Shown piece after piece: positions 3,340 through 40,697 of a stretch of DNA of 55,804 nucleotides. The notes beneath the pieces are model-generated. The model was not told where the DNA came from, made no database searches, and saw nothing but the letters and a program-made list of their open reading frames with translations. Numbering within the stretch: position 1 is the stretch's first letter; each line of letters begins with the position of its first letter. The position numbers and the translations under genes were made by a program. Origin of the DNA: Candidatus Kuenenia hertensis (GTDB lineage Bacteria > Planctomycetota > Brocadiia > Brocadiales > Brocadiaceae); the NCBI GenBank assembly GCA_021646465.1, contig SOET01000029.1:1-55804 (forward strand), written 5' to 3'.

Positions 3340-6300
3340 ATGTACAAATCAAGGCATTTACTTCATCTCCCTATCATACTATTTTCTTTGTTTTTTCTCT
3401 TTTCTCACCAATCAGAAGCTGCCGAGAAAGGACAAATCATATCTTTCAAAGAAACTACTGCCGCAAAGAACGTTTTTTACGAAAAAAGCTGGGCGGTGAT
3501 AATCGGCATAAATGAATACGAGCATTGGCCTGAACTTTCTTATGCAATAAATGACGCAAATGATGTAAACGGCATTCTGGAAGAAATGGGTTTTGAAACG
3601 AAAGTATTCCTTAACAAAGAGGCGACCAAGGATTCCATAATGGGCTATTTAATGAACGAACTTCCTCAAAAAACAGGAAAAGATGACCGCCTTATCCTTT
3701 TCTTTTCCGGTCACGGGCACACCACTACATTTAAAACAGGCAACAAGAGGGGTTTCATAATCCCGGTTGATGGTAAAAAGGAACAACCCTATTCCAATAT
3801 ATCAATGAATGATTTACTGAATTTAACCGATATGCTGATCTCAAAACATATCTTTTTTATTTTAGACGCCTGTTTTGCCGGTTCCCTTGTAACCCTTGCG
3901 AGTGAATCCAGAAACAGAGGATACGGTGAGTCTGATTATGATATCGAGTACGTAAAAGAATTGGCGAAAAAGAACGTCTGTCAGATCCTTACCGCTGGCG
4001 GTGATAATCAGAAAGTTATAGAGATAGACGGACACGGCATTTTTACGCAGGAACTTATCAAAGCCCTGAAAGGAGCTGCTGATCATGATCACGACTATTA
4101 TATCACCGGACTACAGCTTGCAAATTATGTAAGGCATCAGGTTGCCCTGCAGAGTAAAACCAGGCAAATGCCTATCTATGGAGAATTTTTTTCTCAGGGT
4201 GGAGATATGATATTTATCCTGCCAAGGACGCTTGATATCGATTATGAAAAAACAAAGGCCATGATACTTCAGGAAACTGATATAGACAGGATATTAACTA
4301 TCTATAACAACTTCTGCAAGAAACATAACGCCGGAGATGCTTATATCGAATTATTGGATAATGACTGCAAGAGAAAAATCGAGGAAATTCAGGCAGGAAA
4401 CCAGATAATACGTATGATACGAAATGTCTCCCACTTTAATAAAGCGGGTGAAATAATGGAAACGTACGGGTCTTTTGCAAAGCAATATCCTGAAAGCGCA
4501 TTTTTAATGAAAATTAATGACGAAATCGGCATTATGACTCAAAAAATCATCCGTTTAAATGAACTGGAATTAAAAATCAAATCTTCAGAATCTATAAACG
4601 AATTGGAAACGATTAAGACTAAAGAAATGGCGGCGTTTCAGGAAGACTATCCCGAATACGAAAATATACCTCCCCCTCTTATGGAGCTATGGAAATCAAA
4701 GAAAAATATGCTTGAAGAGAAGAGGAAAAAGAAAATTACCGTTGCCAAAAAAAGTATTGAAAATGCTGCAAATGCAATGGATATAGAAACAATAAAAAAT
4801 AACTTTCACAACAATGACCTTTGGGAACACTTACTGGAACCAATTGCAAGGCAAAAGGAAAAAGAGCTTGAATATATCGAATCTCAGATGTACAAAGATG
4901 CGCAAGACAAACTGACAAAAGCAAAAAGCGCCTATGATGTTTACCTCATTTATATGGAATTCAATGAACAATTTCCCCGCAGCAAATATCTGGAGTCTCT
5001 TGATGAGACAACAAATCTGAAAAACGCAGAATTAAGAATGAGAGAAGCAAAAACAGTCGGCAACATAAACGCTGTCCTTACCGAATTTTCTGATATTCTT
5101 CAAACTCAAGAGAATAAAAAAATATTAGCAGAAACAGCAAAAGAGGCTTGTAAAAAAATCAGAGACGCCGAAGATGAAGAAATCCGTGAATCTCATCACG
5201 GCAGGATAGCCAGTGCAAAAGACCTTTGCGAGCTAAGCATGATTGAAGAAGAAGTAAACATATATATCCAGGCACATCCTGATTATAAAGATGCCTCTGT
5301 GCTGAAGGAACTGCTAAATGACAAGCGTGAACAACTGAAGACACAAAATCAGTCTGATCTGAACATTGCAAAGAAAGAGCTTGATAATGAATGGGATCCC
5401 GAAGACGTCCTTTTAGTAGCATCAATATTTGGGAAAAAATATACCTGCAGTATTTTTTTAGATGAATTAAATAAGTATGCAAACGCAAGGGTTTCAAAAT
5501 TGGAAAAAATCGCTGAAGAGTATGAATCAATATTGAAAGACATAAGCGAATCAACTGATTTAACATCATTTGCAGCAGTTAAAATGTGTGTGGATAATTT
5601 TTTGATGGAATATAAGGACTACCCCCACGCAGCGATATTGCCCGACAATTTACAAAAAAAACACACCGAACTGAAAGGACAAGAAGAACAGGCATTTGAA
5701 AATGCGAAGAAGAACCTGGGAAAAACGCAAACAACCGGCGATGCCGAACTTGTTTACAGGAATTTTGAAGAAACCTTTTCCTCCAGTAAATTTATTGTGG
5801 CATTAAAGGAATTAACCGAATTGAGGAAGGCAAAGATTTCCATGAAACCTGCAACAGGAGATTCCTGGGAGGATCCTATAACTGGAATTGAATATGTTTA
5901 TATCCCCGGCGGTTCATTTTATATGGGAGACACATTTGGTGACGAAGATGATGAGGAAAAACAGTTAGTAAAAGTGAACATAAAAGGCTTCTGGATGAGC
6001 AGGCATGAAGTAACACAGGGTACGTGGAAACAGATTATGTATAACAATCCATCATATTTTAAAAACGGAGACAGTTTCCCGGTAGAAATGGTAAGCTGGA
6101 ATGATGTTCAGGTTTTTATTAAAGAGCTGAACTCGCTTCATCAGGGCGTTTACACATTTCGGCTCCCAACAGAAGCCGAATGGGAATATGCATGCCGTGA
6201 GGGCGGAAAACAAGTCAGATTTGGAAATGGTGAAAATATTATTGATCCAAAGAAGGTTAATTTTAACGGAGATTCCCGGTTTAAAGAACCGTATTCCATC

Positions 6301-6585
6301 GCAGGAGAATACAGAAAACAAACAACGCCCACAGGAAGTTTCCCCCCCAACAGCCTGGGACTCTATGATATGAGTGGTAATGTATGGGAATGGACGCAGG
6401 ATAACTATAATTTTGAAACAGGCGCAGAAATTTCAAAAACGAATCCTGAGAAATATTATGTGATTCGGGGTGGTTCATGGAACTTCAGGCCCCTGTATTT
6501 ACGTGCGGCGAACAGAACAGGGTTAAAAGGCACAGCACGGCTTTGGGATACCGGATTTCGCGTAGTTCGCCAGACCGGAAATTGA
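3340..6585 (+). CDS. Secreted caspase-like protease (C14) fused to FGE/SUMF1 domain
   Basis: This 1081-residue protein has a signal peptide at residues 1-27 (cleavage near SEA-AEK). The caspase p20-like domain spans about 48-290, with catalytic His125 in SGHGH and Cys178 in LDACFAG. About 540 residues of charged, mostly helical sequence follow, with recurring short repeats resembling tandem alpha-hairpins. The C-terminal FGE/SUMF1-type domain spans about 845-1079 (IPGGSFYMG, RLPTEAEWEYA, GNVWEWTQD, RGGSWN, GFRVVR). FGE-like domains adopt a C-type-lectin-like fold and often act as binding rather than catalytic modules. Both caspase residues are present, so activity is plausible; substrate and location (periplasm or surface) are inferred. 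The stop lies 4 bp from that of the convergent second caspase. Confidence 0.92.
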   Translation: MYKSRHLLHLPIILFSLFFLFSHQSEAAEKGQIISFKETTAAKNVFYEKSWAVIIGINEYEHWPELSYAINDANDVNGILEEMGFETKVFLNKEATKDSIMGYLMNELPQKTGKDDRLILFFSGHGHTTTFKTGNKRGFIIPVDGKKEQPYSNISMNDLLNLTDMLISKHIFFILDACFAGSLVTLASESRNRGYGESDYDIEYVKELAKKNVCQILTAGGDNQKVIEIDGHGIFTQELIKALKGAADHDHDYYITGLQLANYVRHQVALQSKTRQMPIYGEFFSQGGDMIFILPRTLDIDYEKTKAMILQETDIDRILTIYNNFCKKHNAGDAYIELLDNDCKRKIEEIQAGNQIIRMIRNVSHFNKAGEIMETYGSFAKQYPESAFLMKINDEIGIMTQKIIRLNELELKIKSSESINELETIKTKEMAAFQEDYPEYENIPPPLMELWKSKKNMLEEKRKKKITVAKKSIENAANAMDIETIKNNFHNNDLWEHLLEPIARQKEKELEYIESQMYKDAQDKLTKAKSAYDVYLIYMEFNEQFPRSKYLESLDETTNLKNAELRMREAKTVGNINAVLTEFSDILQTQENKKILAETAKEACKKIRDAEDEEIRESHHGRIASAKDLCELSMIEEEVNIYIQAHPDYKDASVLKELLNDKREQLKTQNQSDLNIAKKELDNEWDPEDVLLVASIFGKKYTCSIFLDELNKYANARVSKLEKIAEEYESILKDISESTDLTSFAAVKMCVDNFLMEYKDYPHAAILPDNLQKKHTELKGQEEQAFENAKKNLGKTQTTGDAELVYRNFEETFSSSKFIVALKELTELRKAKISMKPATGDSWEDPITGIEYVYIPGGSFYMGDTFGDEDDEEKQLVKVNIKGFWMSRHEVTQGTWKQIMYNNPSYFKNGDSFPVEMVSWNDVQVFIKELNSLHQGVYTFRLPTEAEWEYACREGGKQVRFGNGENIIDPKKVNFNGDSRFKEPYSIAGEYRKQTTPTGSFPPNSLGLYDMSGNVWEWTQDNYNFETGAEISKTNPEKYYVIRGGSWNFRPLYLRAANRTGLKGTARLWDTGFRVVRQTGN

Positions 6586-6589
6586 TCGG

Positions 6590-7951
6590 TTAATCAATGC
6601 TTTCCAACAAAAATAATTCACCTCTTCCTTCCAACCTGCTGCCATGAGGATTTTGTTTCTGGCGGGTATCTTTCGAAACGTGCGTATGAAGGTATTCCTC
6701 CAACTCCGAACAGAGTATGAAACCGTCATTATTGATGTCCGATTCTCCTTCTAAGGCACGTAATAAATATCTGGTAAAAAGGTCGGTATTATCTGCCGTT
6801 TGAATGTGCTCCCCGGCATTACATGCAGTAATCGCATGAACTATTTTCTCCGGCGCCATTGCTTCAAAGCGGTCAACAACTTGTGGAGAAGCATTTTTCA
6901 GACCACCTGCTTCAGAAACAACCATGCAGGAATCAATAATATAAAGAATGTGTTTTGCCGGAATGCCGTCAGAAATATCTTTTAACTGTTCGATAGAAAT
7001 AACAGAACGCAATAAATCAGCAGATGAGGAATCTGCGGGAACAAGGTAACTGTTTTTTCTTCCTGTAGAAGCATCCTCATTTTGCCCATGTCCTGAGAAG
7101 TAAACAAGCACAAGGTCGTTAACCCCTGCCTTTCCCGTAAGATTGTAGTGAAGTTCGTCAAGAATACGGTCTTTAACTGCCTCTCTGTCCAGCAAGGTGA
7201 CAATCTCGCGAAACCCGATCTCCTCAAGTTTTTGCTTAACAGCAAGTGCATTATTCACTGCATAATTCAAAACAGGCCAATTTTCATAATCATCTATCCC
7301 TATTACGATGGCAAAAGATGTGTTATAAAAATCCGGAATTTTTGTACGTGTTTTTTTCTTCTCTACGGTAAATGAATATCTGGTTTGATTACCAAAAACA
7401 TCCGCCGCCTCAATAACAATTTCATTCAAGCCTGCAACAATAGGAATTCTTTTCTGAAAATTTCCGTTTTCTTCAACAGGCGCGCTCATTTGATTAATCT
7501 TAACCCATGAAATGTTACTGGCATCCTTCAACGTCCCTTTTACCAGGATATCCTTGTGCCTGAACGAAAGCCTGATATCTTTCTGAGCAACTGGCGTAAT
7601 CAGGTTGATTTCAGGTCCTTCTGTGTCCACAGTACTGCCAAGAACTAACCCTTCACTGCGTTTTTCCAGAACTCTGATACAATAGCGAAGTTTTTCATTG
7701 GGAGCATAATCATAATACATCATTCCGATACGAACTTTTTTATCGTCTGGCTCAAGAGAAACCGCCTTTTTGAATAAAACAATCGCCGTTTCATAATCAT
7801 TATTTTTTATTGCCTTTAAACCTTTTTCATAGGTTTTTAATGCCATTGTTATAGCAAAGCCCGTATTGCAATGAAAAATCACAAACACGAAAATGCACAA
7901 GATGAATGGAGAAAGAACCTTTCTTTTTTGAAGAAAATGGGATATATGCAT
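6590..7951 (-). CDS. Secreted TPR/Ig-like/caspase-like protein (C14)
   Basis: This 453-residue protein has a hydrophobic export segment at residues 13-34, possibly with a lipobox-like Cys28. A TPR-like pair spans about 36-72 (YEKGLKAIKNNDYETAIVLFKKA type). A beta-sandwich/Ig-like segment spans about 112-196, in the style IVEAADVFGNQ seen in Bacteroidales/planctomycete Ig repeats. The caspase domain spans about 210-440, with His288 in FSGHG and Cys342 in IIDSC. It resembles the N-terminal half of the lipoprotein at 25.9-28.1 kb joined to a caspase domain. It is convergent with the caspase-FGE gene, so the two are probably controlled separately. No good Shine-Dalgarno precedes the ATG. The proteolytic target is unknown. 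Confidence 0.88.
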   Translation of the reverse strand: MHISHFLQKRKVLSPFILCIFVFVIFHCNTGFAITMALKTYEKGLKAIKNNDYETAIVLFKKAVSLEPDDKKVRIGMMYYDYAPNEKLRYCIRVLEKRSEGLVLGSTVDTEGPEINLITPVAQKDIRLSFRHKDILVKGTLKDASNISWVKINQMSAPVEENGNFQKRIPIVAGLNEIVIEAADVFGNQTRYSFTVEKKKTRTKIPDFYNTSFAIVIGIDDYENWPVLNYAVNNALAVKQKLEEIGFREIVTLLDREAVKDRILDELHYNLTGKAGVNDLVLVYFSGHGQNEDASTGRKNSYLVPADSSSADLLRSVISIEQLKDISDGIPAKHILYIIDSCMVVSEAGGLKNASPQVVDRFEAMAPEKIVHAITACNAGEHIQTADNTDLFTRYLLRALEGESDINNDGFILCSELEEYLHTHVSKDTRQKQNPHGSRLEGRGELFLLESID

Positions 7952-23644: not shown

Positions 23645-23731
23645 AACTTGAAAAACAACCCTGTCAGTGTTAATTGCGCAATCCCTGCCGCAAATAATAT
23701 CCTTAAACTTTTGTTTGGAGGTATGGAAACA

Positions 23732-25891
23732 ATGAAGGTGCCTGTGCCAAAAATGGCTATTATGGTTAATCTGGTAGTATTTCTTTTTTCTCTTGTTTTT
23801 TTGCCATTGTCGTATTCAGAAGGGAATGTAGTCGGTATGATACGGAAATCATCCGGAAAGGTCTGGCTGCTGAGAGAAGGAAGCAAGTTGGAAGCCCAAA
23901 AGGCCATGGAGTTGCAAAAAGGCGATATGCTGGAAGTGGAAGACGGAGCGAATACCGTGATTGTTTACTACGATGGCGGCAGAAAAGAGGAATATGCCTC
24001 AAAATCACTTATCGAAATCGGTAATAATAGCAGTACTATACTGGAGGGAAGCGCGGTAACCGCGCAGAAAAAGAAAGAAAAGAAAATTATACTTGATATG
24101 AAAGACAATACGTTGAACTTGCCCGACAGGGATATTGCCCATGCGGGCGGCCAATTTATTCGCGGTATACTTCCCCCGAAAAAATACTTTGAAGCAAATA
24201 ACATACAACGGTACGCCGTGGTAATTGGTATATCAGACTATAAAGACCCGAAAATACCGGACCTTAAATATGCCGACAAAGACGCCCAGGCCTTTTATGA
24301 TTTTATAACGAGCACCGAAGGAGGCGATTTTAATAAAGAAAATGTTTTACTGTTAAAAAATGAACAGGCAACACTTAAAAACGTAAAGCTCGCTCTTACA
24401 AACTTTCTTAAAAAAGCGATTGATACCGATTATGTTGTCATATTTATGGCATGCCATGGCGAACCGGAACCAGACCGTCCCAGTAATCTCTATTTGCTAA
24501 CCCATGACTCGGAACTTGCGAGTTTATCTGCAACGGCATACCACATGGAAAACGTAAATGCGGATATGAAACGATACATATTGGCGAAGCGGTTGATTTT
24601 TCTTGCTGATGCATGCCATAGTGCGGGGCTGACTGAAGGATCCGTTGGAACAAGGGGATTTTCAAATACCATTAATGTCGCCATCTCCGAACTTAAATCC
24701 ACGCGGGAAGGATGGGGAATAGTAAGTTCCTGCAGGGCTGGCGAGGTGTCCATGGAATCAGAAAAATGGGGCGGCGGACATGGGGCGTTTACCTATTATT
24801 TGCTGGAGGCTTTAAAGGGAGACGCGGACAAGGCGGGGAATAACAATGGTATCGTAACACTCGCAGAAACGTATGACTTTTTAGAAGAAAAAGTGAAACG
24901 GGCAACTCAAAGTGCTCAGCACCCTGATATAACGGGTAATTTCGATAACAATCTCCCTCTGGGCTTTCCTGGTACAGACGTTCCGAAGGCAGAAAAAGGC
25001 AAGGGCGCTCCCAAACCTCGTTTGGGAACGGTACAAATAGACACTACCCCTGAAGGAGCCTCAGTGCTGATTGGAGGAAGCGATATTAACGCTGTTACAC
25101 CGGCAACCGTAAAACTCGCTGCGGGCACATATCCTGTTACTATTAAAAAGCAGGGTTTTGAAGATGTGACAAATACGGTGTTCATTAACCCTTCGGAAAA
25201 TACGGATGTGTATTTCGATCTTATAAGCAGAGGAACAAAAGAAAATACAACCGGAGCAGCCATCCAGAATGTTCAGCAGGAATACGCGGAAATGTCCGCC
25301 GGCAATAAAGAATCGTTAGAACACAAGGAGATGCTGAAAGACAACATTGACGCATTAATCAAAGAATTAGAATCTATTGCAAAAGAACAGGCAAAAGATG
25401 ATATAGTCACTGACAAAAAACCGCAGAAAAAGATACAGGAAGTTGTCGCAGCGGAACCGACGGTCCCCGTATCAATAAAAGAATTTTCAGTAAAAATGGG
25501 CGCCCTATCCAATAAGCGAAATATGGAGAGGCTACGGCAGAAAATAATAGACGCCCTGATCAGTGAGAAGGGATTAAGTGTCGTCGAGAGAGACCTGGAG
25601 TTTCAGGAAGAAATATTGCGGGAACAAAGGCTCAGCGGTTCGGTGCTTGCCGATGAAATGTACAGGATAAGTTTGGGGAAAATACAAGGGGCGCAATTTT
25701 TATGTTTCAGCGGGGTTGCTCCCGGCGACTCGCCCGAACAACTTACATTGCGGATGGAAATTGTAGATACTGCTACTACACAAGTGGATACGCTGGAACA
25801 TGTGTTTAATACCGAAGATAATTTCAGGGCTATTGCTAGCACCGTGGCTTCGAAAATCAGAGAAAAGATTTCAACAAAACGGAAGTTATAA
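23732..25891 (+). CDS. Secreted FecR-like/caspase/PEGA/CsgG-like protein
   Basis: This 719-residue protein starts at the ATG at 23732, 10 bases after GGAGG; an ATG at 23723 is too close to it. A signal peptide ends near SYS-EGN. The FecR-like beta domain spans about 30-100. The caspase domain spans about 158-400, with His242 in MACHGE (instead of SGHG) and Cys295 in LADACHSAG. The PEGA domain spans about 438-512 (IDTTPEGASVLIGG...GFEDVT). A charged linker leads to a CsgG/FlgO-like domain at about 565-715 (VVERDLEFQEEILREQ, GKIQGAQF, IVDTATTQV). The neighbouring lipoprotein shares that last domain. Two bases separate it from the next gene. A cell-envelope surveillance or regulated-death role is inferred. 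Confidence 0.9.
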   Translation: MKVPVPKMAIMVNLVVFLFSLVFLPLSYSEGNVVGMIRKSSGKVWLLREGSKLEAQKAMELQKGDMLEVEDGANTVIVYYDGGRKEEYASKSLIEIGNNSSTILEGSAVTAQKKKEKKIILDMKDNTLNLPDRDIAHAGGQFIRGILPPKKYFEANNIQRYAVVIGISDYKDPKIPDLKYADKDAQAFYDFITSTEGGDFNKENVLLLKNEQATLKNVKLALTNFLKKAIDTDYVVIFMACHGEPEPDRPSNLYLLTHDSELASLSATAYHMENVNADMKRYILAKRLIFLADACHSAGLTEGSVGTRGFSNTINVAISELKSTREGWGIVSSCRAGEVSMESEKWGGGHGAFTYYLLEALKGDADKAGNNNGIVTLAETYDFLEEKVKRATQSAQHPDITGNFDNNLPLGFPGTDVPKAEKGKGAPKPRLGTVQIDTTPEGASVLIGGSDINAVTPATVKLAAGTYPVTIKKQGFEDVTNTVFINPSENTDVYFDLISRGTKENTTGAAIQNVQQEYAEMSAGNKESLEHKEMLKDNIDALIKELESIAKEQAKDDIVTDKKPQKKIQEVVAAEPTVPVSIKEFSVKMGALSNKRNMERLRQKIIDALISEKGLSVVERDLEFQEEILREQRLSGSVLADEMYRISLGKIQGAQFLCFSGVAPGDSPEQLTLRMEIVDTATTQVDTLEHVFNTEDNFRAIASTVASKIREKISTKRKL

Positions 25892-32717: not shown

Positions 32718-32934
32718 TAAAAGTTTTACAAAATAATATTAGAATAACGAACATATACTCAAGATGTTCATAAAAGGTGATTTTTAAATTGATAATAGGG
32801 TGGCATGGACTGTAGAGACGCATAGCAATGCGTCTCTATGTTTGTTTGTCCGTGTTGAACTTGTACGATATTGTCTATAAATCACAAATTGTGAGCCTAT
32901 TGATCATAGATACGTTATAAATGAAGGTTGCATA
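32718..32934. other. Intergenic, no clear terminator
   Basis: About 220 bp between the aldolase and a decayed antitoxin gene. Apart from the hairpin at 32813-32838, nothing is recognised. Confidence 0.4.
32813..32838. repeat. GAGACGCAT palindromic repeat
   Basis: An 11-bp stem TAGAGACGCAT with loop AGCA and its complement. This word (GTAGAGACGCA...TGCGTCTCTAC) is a frequent dispersed palindrome in several phyla. It is not followed by a clean T-run in either direction, so it is not a strong terminator, though it is the only hairpin after fba. Confidence 0.6.
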
Positions 32935-35516: not shown

Positions 35517-36470
35517 CTAAAGGAAAGAGTACCGCCACGAATTCCAGCAGCTATTCGTTGTCACTTTCTCATACATTTCAGGTAAGGGATAAACAACTCT
35601 AACATCCGGATAATTAAGCGCAAATAAGCAAGCTCCTAAAGCCATGGGTTTGGTACCTAGCGGTGCAATGTTAATAAATGATTTTCCATTTTCATTTTTA
35701 ATGCCTTCGAGAATATTAAATACCTCAAAAGGATTATTTGCCCTACTGAATTTGACTTTAATATCTCTATCACTTGTAAGCTTCTCATTTGCGACTAAGC
35801 TTATATCTTTAAATTTTGGAGAATAGCTTGGAAAACCATTTATTACCAATGTTTCTGATGGAGAAATATCTTCGTTTATTTCTTTGGATAAATCGCCGTC
35901 AAAACCTAATAAAATAACCAAAACCCTTCTATCCCCTCTTGATTCATAACCTGAAAACCCTGGAATTTCTAAAATTGTAAGGGGACCGGTACTTGAACGA
36001 TATGCGCTAGAAATTCCACCTGGAAATAGATAAAATTGAGGTTCAGTATAAAAAACACTTATGGAATCGATCTTAAATCTTTCTTTAAAAAGTTTGAGCA
36101 GATAAAAGAAGTATGGTTTTGTAAAACAAGAAATATCTAATGCAATTTTGGGGGCAGTTGTAGATAAAAATTCAGCTTCCAAAGGAATTAAATCTTGCAG
36201 ACAAGAATTTGGATCTCTAATAGAACATTTAATAGGTAAAATATTATTGAAACCAATTGTTTGATATTCAAAATAAGGGTCACTTTTATCAATATCTCGA
36301 ACCCGTTCATAAAAATCAAAAAGTAATATCTTATTAATTGCGGTATCTTTGGATTTCATCTTTCTTAATACTTCATAAGCCCTATAATCAGAACCTCCAG
36401 ACAGAAGAAAGAAATCATGGTCATTTATTTCGCCAGAAATTAAATCCATTTGATAAACCAACTTTCTCAT
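35517..36470 (-). CDS. CARF/Rossmann-like protein in a conflict-system operon
   Basis: This 317-residue protein was not confidently recognised. The C-terminal half contains FINIAPLGTKPMALGACLFAL..PDVRVVYPLP, reminiscent of the (T/S/L)GTKPMA signature of CARF-type nucleotide-sensing domains. The N-terminus (HDFFLLSGGSDYRAYEVL) and middle (ALDISCFTKPYFFYLLKLF) also show Rossmann-like strand-loop patterns, so it may be a duplicated Rossmann protein. No nuclease motif is seen. It is the last gene of the four-gene operon, 6 bp after the ATPase gene. A sensor or regulatory role is inferred. Confidence 0.7.
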   Translation of the reverse strand: MRKLVYQMDLISGEINDHDFFLLSGGSDYRAYEVLRKMKSKDTAINKILLFDFYERVRDIDKSDPYFEYQTIGFNNILPIKCSIRDPNSCLQDLIPLEAEFLSTTAPKIALDISCFTKPYFFYLLKLFKERFKIDSISVFYTEPQFYLFPGGISSAYRSSTGPLTILEIPGFSGYESRGDRRVLVILLGFDGDLSKEINEDISPSETLVINGFPSYSPKFKDISLVANEKLTSDRDIKVKFSRANNPFEVFNILEGIKNENGKSFINIAPLGTKPMALGACLFALNYPDVRVVYPLPEMYEKVTTNSCWNSWRYSFL

Positions 36471-36476
36471 ATTGAA

Positions 36477-38441
36477 TCAAACAAACAGTTTTTTTTGTAT
36501 AAATTTTTTTCCTGATTCATCATTCATTTGTTTAAGATAATCTTTTGAACTAACATTTTCTTCACTCATTAATTTTATAATATCCGATGCAGTCAACTTT
36601 ACTGAATGCCCTCCTCGTGTCCTATAAGAAATTTGGAAGCTTGGTGAAAAAATTCTGTTAATGGTGTAAATATCTTCTAAGTACTTTCCAGGAGAAGATT
36701 GTTGAAGGTTAGGTTTCTTCTGAATTACACTCCATCTTATAGCAGCCTTCATTGCATCTTTAAATTTTTGGTCAGGCAAGTTATCAATGTCTGCCGAAAA
36801 TTGATTTGTCTCAGGATATCTAATACCTTTGTCTTTATGAAAATCCCTAAAAATATTTCCAATATTATTTATGAATTTATATATAATTCCTCCAAACTTT
36901 TCGATCCTATTTATCTGTTGCAATTCAGCCGCAGAAAAATCTGATGCAGCCTTTGTTTGTTGCTCATTAGATATTTTCCCTTCTTTGATTAAAAGGTCTT
37001 TATTTTCGAATTCAGCATACTGAAAAGACCTTCTACATAGTTCAATAAAATTTCCTACTATTCCAGATGATAAAAAAGAGAAGGTATTAAAGCTGTAATA
37101 TTTTTTATGTTTTCGATAAATGGAGCATAGCAAAAACATTAAAGACAATTTGTATTTATCTACATAATCCATATGATACTTTTTTTCATTTTTCCCAGTT
37201 TTATTACCATTTAGATAATCTTCCATAGCATTTTTAACTTCATCTACTTTAACACCTCTGAGTACCCATAAAATATTTAAAAGTTCTAATAAAGGATTTT
37301 CCTTATAGGTAATAGCATCAATATCAGAAGCTGTAAGAAATTTTTTAAAATGATCAAAGTGTTTCCCAGGGTTTTTGGAAACTAATTCTAATGCCTCTTC
37401 TTCGAGGTTCTCAGTTTTTGATAAAAATTCAGCTATATCTATCTTCCCATTTTCCTTAAAAATGGATACCGATTCCAATCGCTTTTTAGATACCTCCTTC
37501 AGGAAATGATAATAGCCTTCGTCTTTTATAAGAACTTCTTCAAAAATAACTTTTCTATACTCTCTTCCTTCCTTAATAAAATCATCTTCGGAAATCATAT
37601 TAAAAGTTCTAAATCCCTCTAATCTCATCCCTATTCGGAACCTGATTTCATTCTTTGAAAATCTTAATAAGGTATTTATTACGCGTTGTTGGGGCTCAAG
37701 GTAATTTTCATATTCATCTATCAGTAATATAAAATTTATTGATTCCTTTAATTCGGAAATTGTTTTTTTTGCGATTTCAGGGATACCAAAGCTTAAACAT
37801 TGTGAGGCAAATCCACCTTTGGAGGGAATAAAATCATTCTTGAAAAATGGGATATTTCCACGAAACCTGTCGACTTCTTTAATTCTATTATCAAATTCAC
37901 TTAAAAGTGCTTCTAACGATTGGATTTGTGGTTCATTAATAATTTGCCTTACTTCTGGTATGAATTGATCTTCTATTTCGTCCCTTTTTAGGTTCTCTAA
38001 ATCGTAAAGCTTTTTAATTGCTTCAATATAATTTCTTCCCACAATAAGTTCAAAGTAATGCGTGAAAATAGAATTCCATTTCTTGGTATCTATTCCAAAA
38101 CCATCAAATGACCTTAGAACTGGACCATCTATTCTGATATAGAATCCAAGTCCTTTTTTTTCTTTAAAATAGTCTATTATCCTCTTGGCTTTGTTATTTG
38201 CTTTATTTTGACAAGCTAACTTCAATTGAACGGGAAATGACCAATATCTTAAAAACATTGTTTTCCCCGTACTTCTACCACCCATAAAAACAATATTACT
38301 AGGATCCTCGTAAATGTCTGTCTCTTTAATCTCAGAGAAAAGACGATAAACAAAAGGGCTACACCAATAATCCAAAATGGCTTGGTCATCAAGAGTTACT
38401 GCATTAATTCCACTAAATGGATTTCTATAAGAATTTTTCAT
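36477..38441 (-). CDS. ORC/Cdc6-like AAA+ ATPase of a conflict system
   Basis: This 654-residue protein has Walker A MGGRSTGKT at about residues 53-61 and Walker B FILLIDEYENY at about 239-249. The sensor-like segment IRFRIGMRLEG follows, then a long helical C-terminal region. The layout fits the ORC-CDC6-like ATPases that comparative genomics places in prokaryotic conflict systems beside a PRTase-like protein. It probably uses ATP to recognise or remodel DNA and switch an effector. It overlaps the upstream PRTase-like gene by 17 bp, implying translational coupling. Composition is AT-rich relative to the chromosome. Confidence 0.8.
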   Translation of the reverse strand: MKNSYRNPFSGINAVTLDDQAILDYWCSPFVYRLFSEIKETDIYEDPSNIVFMGGRSTGKTMFLRYWSFPVQLKLACQNKANNKAKRIIDYFKEKKGLGFYIRIDGPVLRSFDGFGIDTKKWNSIFTHYFELIVGRNYIEAIKKLYDLENLKRDEIEDQFIPEVRQIINEPQIQSLEALLSEFDNRIKEVDRFRGNIPFFKNDFIPSKGGFASQCLSFGIPEIAKKTISELKESINFILLIDEYENYLEPQQRVINTLLRFSKNEIRFRIGMRLEGFRTFNMISEDDFIKEGREYRKVIFEEVLIKDEGYYHFLKEVSKKRLESVSIFKENGKIDIAEFLSKTENLEEEALELVSKNPGKHFDHFKKFLTASDIDAITYKENPLLELLNILWVLRGVKVDEVKNAMEDYLNGNKTGKNEKKYHMDYVDKYKLSLMFLLCSIYRKHKKYYSFNTFSFLSSGIVGNFIELCRRSFQYAEFENKDLLIKEGKISNEQQTKAASDFSAAELQQINRIEKFGGIIYKFINNIGNIFRDFHKDKGIRYPETNQFSADIDNLPDQKFKDAMKAAIRWSVIQKKPNLQQSSPGKYLEDIYTINRIFSPSFQISYRTRGGHSVKLTASDIIKLMSEENVSSKDYLKQMNDESGKKFIQKKLFV

Positions 38442-39345
38442 TTATTGCTAATTCTCTTCTTTTATAATTCTTATCGTACCTTTTAAATATTGGATACCAA
38501 CCATTGCCTGTTCCCCAAAATATAGGCAATGTATTATCCGGGGTATTATAAAAAAAACCAAAAGCATATTCGCCCTTCTCATAACCTAAAGGCCAATTAC
38601 TATCAATTTTATTGCCATAATGCAATACAAAATTTTTACATATTATCCTATACCTTGAATAAGTATGGAAAATATCAGAAACAGGACTAAAGCATTTGTT
38701 TCTATTATCTAAAATAATTGTTGTAACAACCTCTACTCCAATCTTTTTTAACTCCGTAATCGCAACTTCGCTTGCAATTAAAGTTAAAAGGATAATTTTT
38801 TTATTTGGATAATCTGATTTTATTTTTTTAAGTTTCCTGTAAGCCTGTCCACTTTTGCCTGCTGTTAAGGTGACATCATCAATATAAACCAAATTATCAA
38901 CTGAATCAGTATCACCTTTTTTTGAGAAAATGAAATAGGAAATATGAAGGTCATTAATTCGTCTAAAATGATACAAAATATATCCACCACTCTCGCTAGC
39001 TTCCCCAAGGGCTAAAAAACGAGTTCTTGCAATTATTTCAGCTAAATCATTATCAATTTTATCTTGTATGGTATTCGCATCAATCAAGATTTTATGAATA
39101 AAATCTCTCATTAAAACCTTGCAAAGATGAATGACTTCATCATCATTGTAATATACAAAATTTGATAACAGCCATAATGCAAGTACCTTTTCCTCATCTG
39201 CCGTTAAAACCTCTCCATTAAAATTATTTAACCATCTATCAATTTCCTTTTCGGTAATTTCATACTTCCATACGGTTGCACTCGTATGCATTATGAGTTT
39301 TTTTAGTTCTATGATTGAAGGAAAAACTTGTAATATTTTATTCAT
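38425..39345 (-). CDS. Phosphoribosyltransferase-like protein (conflict-system type)
   Basis: This 306-residue protein has the PRPP-binding loop of type I PRTases, VYIDDVTLTAGKSG, at about residues 152-165. A C-terminal motif FFYNTPDNTLPIFW......PIFKR follows, which I associate with the PRTase family found in prokaryotic conflict operons. An N-terminal helical region (about 1-100) has no clear assignment. It could transfer ribose phosphate to a nucleobase or make a modified nucleotide, or be a catalytically inactive nucleotide sensor. It lies 7 bp after the methyltransferase gene and overlaps the ATPase gene. Confidence 0.8.
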   Translation of the reverse strand: MNKILQVFPSIIELKKLIMHTSATVWKYEITEKEIDRWLNNFNGEVLTADEEKVLALWLLSNFVYYNDDEVIHLCKVLMRDFIHKILIDANTIQDKIDNDLAEIIARTRFLALGEASESGGYILYHFRRINDLHISYFIFSKKGDTDSVDNLVYIDDVTLTAGKSGQAYRKLKKIKSDYPNKKIILLTLIASEVAITELKKIGVEVVTTIILDNRNKCFSPVSDIFHTYSRYRIICKNFVLHYGNKIDSNWPLGYEKGEYAFGFFYNTPDNTLPIFWGTGNGWYPIFKRYDKNYKRRELAINEKFL

Positions 39346-39352
39346 GATTCAG

Positions 39353-40246
39353 TTAAATTTTAAAGCGCCCTTCTGATCCTTTAATATACGATTCATTTAT
39401 TTCTACTGAAATCCATTTTCTTTTTAATTTCTCAGCAACACAACCGGTAGTATTACTGCCACCAAAAGGATCAAAAACTAAATCGCCGGGGTCTGTTAAA
39501 AATTTTATAAAAAAATCAGGAATGAATTCTGGCATTCTGGCAGGGTGTAGTTCTATTTTATTCCTTTTACAATGTTCAATATATTTTGATGTTGCGTTTG
39601 TATTTGCTCCAATTAAGACATTCGGTGGGATTGCACCATTATTATCTTTCAAAAACGATTTCTCTCCTATTGAATGCTCCGATGGTCTTCGCCCCGAGTT
39701 GTACTTTTTTTTATTAAGAAGTTTTTTCATCGATTCGCTGTATTCTTCAAGTACATTTCGATTGTTTGCTTTAGGATGTGGCGTTTTACTTAACCACCAT
39801 ATATGAGTAAAAGCATCTTTGACTCTAACTCTTTCTACATTTACCCATTGAACAGGACTGGGAAGTCTGGCAGTATTAAACCATATAAAATGTTGACATA
39901 AAAAATACTTTCCTTTTTCTTGAAATTCCAATAAAGCTCTTAAAGGCAGCGTAGACATTATTGGCCTATTTGCTTCCCAAGCATTACCAAGCTCAATGAC
40001 TATAGAGCCATCTTTTGTAAGAAAATCTCTAAAACCCAAAGCTAATCCAGACAGCCAACTTGTGTATTCTTTTCCATTAAAATTACCATATTTTTTCTTT
40101 CGGTTTAATGGAAAAGGAGGAGACGTAAAAATTAGATTAACCTTCTTTTTATATCTGGCAAAAGCTTTTGACTTCAATATTTCACCAATATCACATTGAT
40201 AGAAAAGCCCTAATTTTGTTTTATATGCTGTTTTAATTTGAGCCAT
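39353..40246 (-). CDS. Site-specific DNA methyltransferase, N4-cytosine type (beta class)
   Basis: This 297-residue protein has catalytic motif IV TSPPF at about residues 41-45 (LIFTSPPFPLNRKKKYGN). The AdoMet-binding motif I DPFGGSNTTG lies near the C-terminus (about 265-274). The order IV before I is that of beta-class methyltransferases, and TSPPF is typical of N4-cytosine enzymes such as PvuII-like ones. It modifies a specific DNA sequence; the target is unknown. It is the first gene of the four-gene operon with no restriction-enzyme gene beside it. It probably marks host DNA as self. Confidence 0.92.
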   Translation of the reverse strand: MAQIKTAYKTKLGLFYQCDIGEILKSKAFARYKKKVNLIFTSPPFPLNRKKKYGNFNGKEYTSWLSGLALGFRDFLTKDGSIVIELGNAWEANRPIMSTLPLRALLEFQEKGKYFLCQHFIWFNTARLPSPVQWVNVERVRVKDAFTHIWWLSKTPHPKANNRNVLEEYSESMKKLLNKKKYNSGRRPSEHSIGEKSFLKDNNGAIPPNVLIGANTNATSKYIEHCKRNKIELHPARMPEFIPDFFIKFLTDPGDLVFDPFGGSNTTGCVAEKLKRKWISVEINESYIKGSEGRFKI

Positions 40247-40697
40247 AAATTTTAGACCGTTTTAAAATTCGTATATAATATCAAACAAAATTTTTTAACT
40301 CATTCCAAAGCTCCGGCTTTGGAACGTAATTGCTTTAGAAGCTTTGCTTCTAATAAGAGGAAGCATGAGCTTCCTTCACAATTGTGTTCCCAAGCAGGAA
40401 CTTGGGAACAAGAAGAGTGGATTTGCAAAAATTTGAGAATGCTCCCTTATCCTTATACCACTCATTCTGAACGGTACAAGATAAAACAGGGACTATTTTT
40501 TATTTTACGATTCTCATACATAGAAATATTGACCAAGCATATTCAATGATGACTGAAAAAAGATACTTGTTTCGCATAAAAAGATCAAGGGAAAAGTATG
40601 GGAAAGGAATAGGAGATAAGGCATAAGATAACTCTATCTTTTATCATACCGATATCGGTCGGCAACAGAATGCAAATGAAGGGAAACAAAGGCTATT
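40247..40697. other. Intergenic, upstream of the conflict operon
   Basis: 450 bp between the methyltransferase start and the end of polB. The part nearest the operon (about 40250-40300) is AT-rich and should hold the promoter. The middle carries the hairpin-repeat cassette listed separately. The remainder shows no gene. Confidence 0.45.
40303..40450 (+). repeat. Dispersed hairpin-repeat cassette, copy C
   Basis: Hairpins TTCCAAAGC-TCCG-GCTTTGGAA (40303-40324), GAAGCTTTGCTTC, GGAAGC-ATGA-GCTTCC, and GTTCCCAAG-CAGGAA-CTTGGGAAC (40386-40409). Then comes GATTTGCAAAAATTTGAGAA with GCTCCC. The last two parts match copy B (21.27-21.34 kb), and the final word matches copy A (window start). It lies in the gap upstream of the conflict operon. 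Confidence 0.65.

Follow-up and report, generated by a model that had tools for sequence, protein, structure and literature searches.

The window analysed here, a stretch of 55,804 nucleotides from Candidatus Kuenenia hertensis, carries on its minus strand an operon of four genes in the order DNA methyltransferase (MTase), PRTase-CE, ORC-CDC6-like ATPase and, last, a tandem CARF protein:

39353-40246, minus strand: DNA amino-methyltransferase (N4/N6), 297 aa; PF01555 (1.2e-36), PADLOC MTase_II (5.5e-89), SPPF motif at 40123-40112
38425-39345, minus strand: PRTase-CE protein, 306 aa; PF24390 (2.7e-50), PADLOC PRTase_III-A (1.8e-36)
36477-38441, minus strand: ORC-CDC6-like AAA+ ATPase, 654 aa; PF24389 (3.7e-88), Walker residues invariant
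35517-36470, minus strand: tandem CARF protein, CARF6 family, 317 aa; no additional effector domain recognised

From the MTase to the CARF gene, neighbours are separated by 7, -17 (an overlap) and 6 bases. The catalytic motifs of PRTase, ATPase and MTase are all intact; the ATPase has its Walker A (GGRSTGKT, 38282-38259) and Walker B (IDEYEN, 37721-37704) segments, and the PRTase-CE protein has a PRPP-type loop, NLVYIDDVTLTAGKS (38895-38851), containing IDDVTLTAGKS, with D156 and D157 invariant in the alignment of homologues. Both family assignments exceed a curated cut-off of 27 bits, scoring 297 bits for the ATPase against PF24389 and 172 bits for the PRTase against PF24390. The AlphaFold2 model of the PRTase-CE protein is of low confidence (pLDDT 53.5), and its VIA-align assignment to the type I PRTase fold is to be read as fold class only.

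The CARF gene is an intact 317-codon ORF lying exactly at 35517-36470, and the plus strand over these positions is stop-rich. The sequence-only reading had placed a 317-residue protein here, and both motif segments that it quoted are found in the product. Its description of the protein as unrecognised has to be given up: PADLOC CARF6 model PDLC01922 matches residues 7-315 (E=1.4e-87), ten other CARF6 models also match (each E <=1e-4), and the Pfam model CARF_Card1 scores 22.4 bits (E=1.3e-4), just below its cut-off of 24.6. As the same PADLOC CARF6 models are matched by 18-19 of 20 homologues, the ORF is more than a chance one. Membership of the product in the CARF6 family is solid. An NCBIfam search with the protein returned no match, solved structures searched by sequence with the protein and its profile returned no CARF match, and hhalign found no match to the host's own Csm6-like protein. 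A weak fimbrial match among the solved structures was discarded as chance, summed over repeats. Makarova et al. (2020, NAR) presumably describe CARF6 among their CARF families. The likeness to it is a full-length match and a tandem CARF without recognised effector domain; the PADLOC name (CARF6--CARF_CARF_CARF) gives three CARF units whereas two are seen here, and nothing in this difference excludes membership.

Predicted structure agrees with this assignment. The AlphaFold2 model, built from an alignment of five rows only and of medium confidence (pLDDT 65.8, pTM 0.75), has two alpha/beta halves at about residues 18-144 and 183-300, in keeping with the two Rossmann-like halves proposed from the letters. 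Foldseek alone gave a mixed list and no strong CARF match, with Csm6 and Csa3 at probability 0.99-1.00 and E 2e-3 to 1e-2 (top Csm6 E=2e-3, probability 1.00). On realignment with VIA-align 2, the 17 top rows were all CARF proteins, led by Can1, Card1, Csm6 and Can2 at Z about 10.9, so the suggestion of a CARF type held up under an AlphaFold model and structural search. Can1 (PDB 6sce), which has two CARFs per chain, aligns over 233 residues spanning 17-302 (Z 10.9, rmsd 4.1) and covers both halves. As judged from this model, the protein is a tandem CARF fold, the fine detail of a medium-confidence prediction not being trustworthy. Its likeness to Can1 and Card1/Can2 is one of fold; unlike them, it has neither a nuclease domain nor an adjoining type III locus. 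SAVED proteins such as Cap5 and CalpL likewise have two CARF-like halves per chain, but they score below the CARF rows (Z 6.5-7.5 over 190-200 residues), and family models assign our protein to CARF6.

The two halves can be compared through 14 homologues, each from a separate locus:

36381-36383, minus strand: Arg30, after N-half strand 1; identical in 14/14 homologues and in 20/20 of a wider set
36114-36137, minus strand: N-half strand-4 motif DISCFTKP, residues 112-119; D/E112 and S/T114 in 14/14, K118 in 2/14
35631-35672, minus strand: C-half strand-4 loop NIAPLGTKPMALGA, residues 267-280; K274 and P275 in 14/14, G272 in 12/14

The CARF signature after strand 4 is [DN]X[ST]XXX[RK] (PMC4012209). 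The N-half meets it literally with DISCFTK (residues 112-118), while the C-half retains the conserved K274 within GTKP in a loop longer by one residue than the signature. The GTKP segment, taken in the sequence-only reading for a CARF ligand loop, is indeed the strand-4 loop. The same reading saw in DISCFTKP a second, degenerate copy; it is the N-half counterpart, yet not simply degenerate, since R30, D112 and S/T114 are among the best-conserved positions even though the basic residue 118 is lost in most homologues. CARF domains are expected to carry a Ser/Thr by strand 1; the protein has S24 there, which is not kept in homologues, whereas R30 is. Further conserved residues are Y141, E143 and Y147. 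That the two halves are conserved differently suggests that together they would form one asymmetric pocket.

Such conservation could also serve a different role, in which the CARF protein is an off-switch, either degrading a nucleotide signal in the manner of a ring nuclease or keeping the PRTase inactive as an antitoxin would. There is no effector domain fused to the CARF, and Y141, E143, Y147, K274 and R30 could, from their conservation, be catalytic; against this, the cassette has no signal synthase, and residue conservation alone does not separate a sensor from a nuclease. We consider an off-switch unlikely and prefer a sensor.

Related loci were picked by their likeness to the CARF or the ORC protein rather than drawn at random. 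The CARF-based set has genomes of the host's phylum and a Cloacimonadota MAG as well as plasmids and a phage-labelled record; ATPase similarity added three viral contigs. Viral contigs scanned with the CARF protein gave no match, nor did two of the ORC subsets. At all 16 loci with a CARF better than 1e-20, the ATPase adjoins the CARF gene and an MTase lies beside the cassette, and PRTase-CE is present at 15. These best-scoring loci span the host's phylum, Proteobacteria, plasmids, viral contigs and the Cloacimonadota MAG. A CARF-like protein beside a PRTase, which had been flagged as notable, is the usual arrangement here: the cassette recurs with ORC-CDC6-like and DNA methyltransferase genes, and it is of an already catalogued kind, predicted to be antiphage, to which the CARF protein contributes one of the four parts. 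The same Pfam families are adjacent, with PRTase and HD effector variants, in the predicted PRTase-CE / HD-CE / ORC-CDC6-like immune systems (PF24389-PF24391). These families presumably stem from the survey of nucleotide-targeting effectors by Nicastro et al. (2023, NAR).

In 14 of these loci, each encoding the whole set of four, the divergence of the CARF protein is correlated with that of the ATPase (Mantel r=0.91), and so is that of the remaining protein pairs, including those with the MTase (0.73-0.84). The cassette MTases at these loci all have an amino-MTase motif and fall into dissimilar groups, of the SPPF/SPPY and the NPPF type. An MTase that is always there and stably inherited with the cassette would suit a restriction-modification-like system in which unmethylated DNA is the direct target of ATPase and PRTase, the CARF having a purely structural part. 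The CARF motifs, however, are among the best-conserved positions, and a CARF serving purely as scaffold would have no use for them; we hold such a system to be quite improbable compared with a CARF that senses.

Variation among the cassettes is informative as to the role of the PRTase. In the variant of genome G137 (L055, 5044-11470), HD-CE occupies the PRTase slot alongside an ORC-CDC6-like protein, a CARF-like protein and ThyX, and the MTase slot holds a C5 DNA methylase fused to an HhH-GPD glycosylase. A PRTase-less cassette (G378, L056) has an HD_3/YfbR-like 5'-deoxynucleotidase gene nearby, and at another locus (L054) ORC and CARF-like genes are combined with a wHTH-Calcineurin_assc protein. 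Replacement of PRTase-CE by HD-domain proteins speaks for the PRTase being the effector. ThyX recurs as an extra gene at L016-L018, L055 and L057, and dUTPase at L019, L021 and L053; together with the nucleotidase-like genes, they point to nucleotide metabolism as target or trigger. Defence-type domains among the cassette neighbours include an HsdR-like helicase, a PLD nuclease, a GIY-YIG type nuclease, SIR2 and TIR. An apparent PRTase-ORC gene fusion (L002, 3492-6362) was rejected: the reading frame shifts at a stretch of seven T, either by sequencing error or by a real frameshift. One copy, beside a Thy1 gene in G122 (L057, 7410-9771), is decayed, with a split CARF and internal stops in the ATPase.

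A related four-gene cassette lies on plasmid pKPHS2 (L020, 4641-9717), annotated as hypothetical proteins and a DNA methylase. Its ATPase is found at >=95% identity in 142 records, about 130 of them from Klebsiella and the rest from Serratia, Enterobacter and E. coli, and most of the matching plasmids are typed as conjugative. The E. coli records are of strains C600 and J53, whose plasmids were apparently transferred. This frequency on plasmids, together with weak matches to ORC subunits obtained with the ATPase profile, might be taken to indicate a module for DNA maintenance or replication control, built on an ORC-CDC6 initiator and a methyltransferase, rather than defence. The cassette also occurs on chromosomes and viral contigs, exchanges PRTase-CE for HD effectors and keeps defence-type neighbours, and the Klebsiella plasmid examined carries its own RepA; we find a replication function highly unlikely and retain defence as the preferred function.

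CARF proteins are best known for sensing the signals of type III CRISPR systems. The sequence-only reading had noted that no CRISPR or cyclic-nucleotide system is present. This stands for the window, where no CRISPR-like repeat array was found. The genome does have a type III-A locus, on contig C3 (L076, 202-11687), which encodes Cas10 (TIGR02578, 9e-192), Csm3, Csm5 and a Csm6-type protein beside a repeat array. No cas genes were seen beside the cassette; of the adjacent SMODS-type nucleotidyltransferase that marks CBASS, none was seen in the operon, and the host genome gave no PF18144 match. With a III-A Cas10, array and Csm6-type protein in the host, and cOA-binding CARFs as the top structural matches, the CARF protein might be a type III accessory that senses the cyclic oligoadenylate of the host Cas10 and signals to the ATPase and PRTase. 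However, the III-A locus is on a different contig, with no cas gene adjoining the cassette. Moreover, the Cas10 palm had no match in the cassette-bearing genomes G359, G369, G048 and G137 (89-100% complete), nor in MAG G392, drafts in which absence is not proof; G392 carries the closest cassette, and G048 and G137 carry divergent versions. Only one of eleven genome assemblies checked (G122) has SMODS. Hence, an accessory of this kind seems rather improbable. As several cassette genomes have no detectable Cas10 or SMODS, the CARF ligand need not be Cas10's cyclic oligoadenylate, although in this host it could come from Cas10. For a cassette so widespread in such genomes, a different trigger, or none, would be expected.

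Taken together, these findings lead us to favour, with moderate confidence, a sensory role for the CARF protein within a predicted antiphage system of four genes, MTase, PRTase-CE, ORC-CDC6-like ATPase and tandem CARF. This predicted system would most probably work by abortive infection, with the CARF sensing a nucleotide and the effector attacking nucleotides. The methyltransferase would mark the cell's own DNA, while the ORC-CDC6-like AAA+ protein would monitor DNA or replication and act as an ATP-driven switch. The asymmetric pocket of the fused CARF halves may bind an infection-derived, nucleotide-type ligand, upon which the CARF would release or drive the ATPase-effector complex. The PRTase-like enzyme would then attack cellular nucleotides or PRPP-linked metabolism, and phage growth would be halted through dormancy or death of the cell. 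We infer a sensor, switch, effector and self-mark, a reading that uses every conserved part.

As regards the effector, DprA-PRTase, the type III retron PRTase and the DS32_1 antiphage PRTase share with the present system a PRTase-like antiphage effector. The PADLOC model PRTase_III-A we take, by its name, to describe the type III-A retron effector; NF053875 is matched weakly by the PRTase at 38425-39345 (E=1.1e-4). DprA-PRTase protects against T7 and lambda (PMC9122126), and PRTase effectors belong to type III retrons (PMC12548924). The partners differ, being DprA or a retron in those systems and CARF and ORC-CDC6 here.

It is tempting to speculate on the ligand. The operon shows no enzyme that would make one, and the papers searched held no experiments on this cassette and no report of a CARF ligand for this cassette type. 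One tentative possibility is that the tandem CARF responds not to cyclic oligoadenylate but, for instance, to a modified or dU/dT-type nucleotide or to a DNA breakdown product arising during infection, which would tie the methylation self-mark to thymidylate and nucleotide metabolism through the ThyX, dUTPase and nucleotidase partners. The CARF protein is a known kind but an unstudied member, and about 130 Klebsiella plasmid records hold related copies annotated as hypothetical proteins. Since the matching plasmids are mostly typed conjugative, standard laboratory strains of E. coli would serve to address the question of the trigger.

The cassette itself looks to have been acquired horizontally. 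It is present in single copy in the host genome and absent from two same-genus genomes, and its GC content is about 0.30-0.33, while the coding flanks have 0.41-0.49; the low GC and the absence from these two relatives indicate horizontal gain. No clean empty site was found in relatives because the cassette flanks lie apart there. Interspersed repeats of ~150 bases occur at 40299-40446, just upstream of the cassette, and at 32754-32903; the former has about 50 full or partial copies in its own genome and many in the two same-genus genomes. That the cassette is flanked by two copies of one repeat was considered and rejected, repeats being near both ends with a common family not demonstrated. 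Elsewhere in the window lie three caspase-domain (Peptidase_C14) proteins (3340-6585, 6590-7951 and 23648-25891), one with a sulfatase-modifying-factor domain and one with PEGA.
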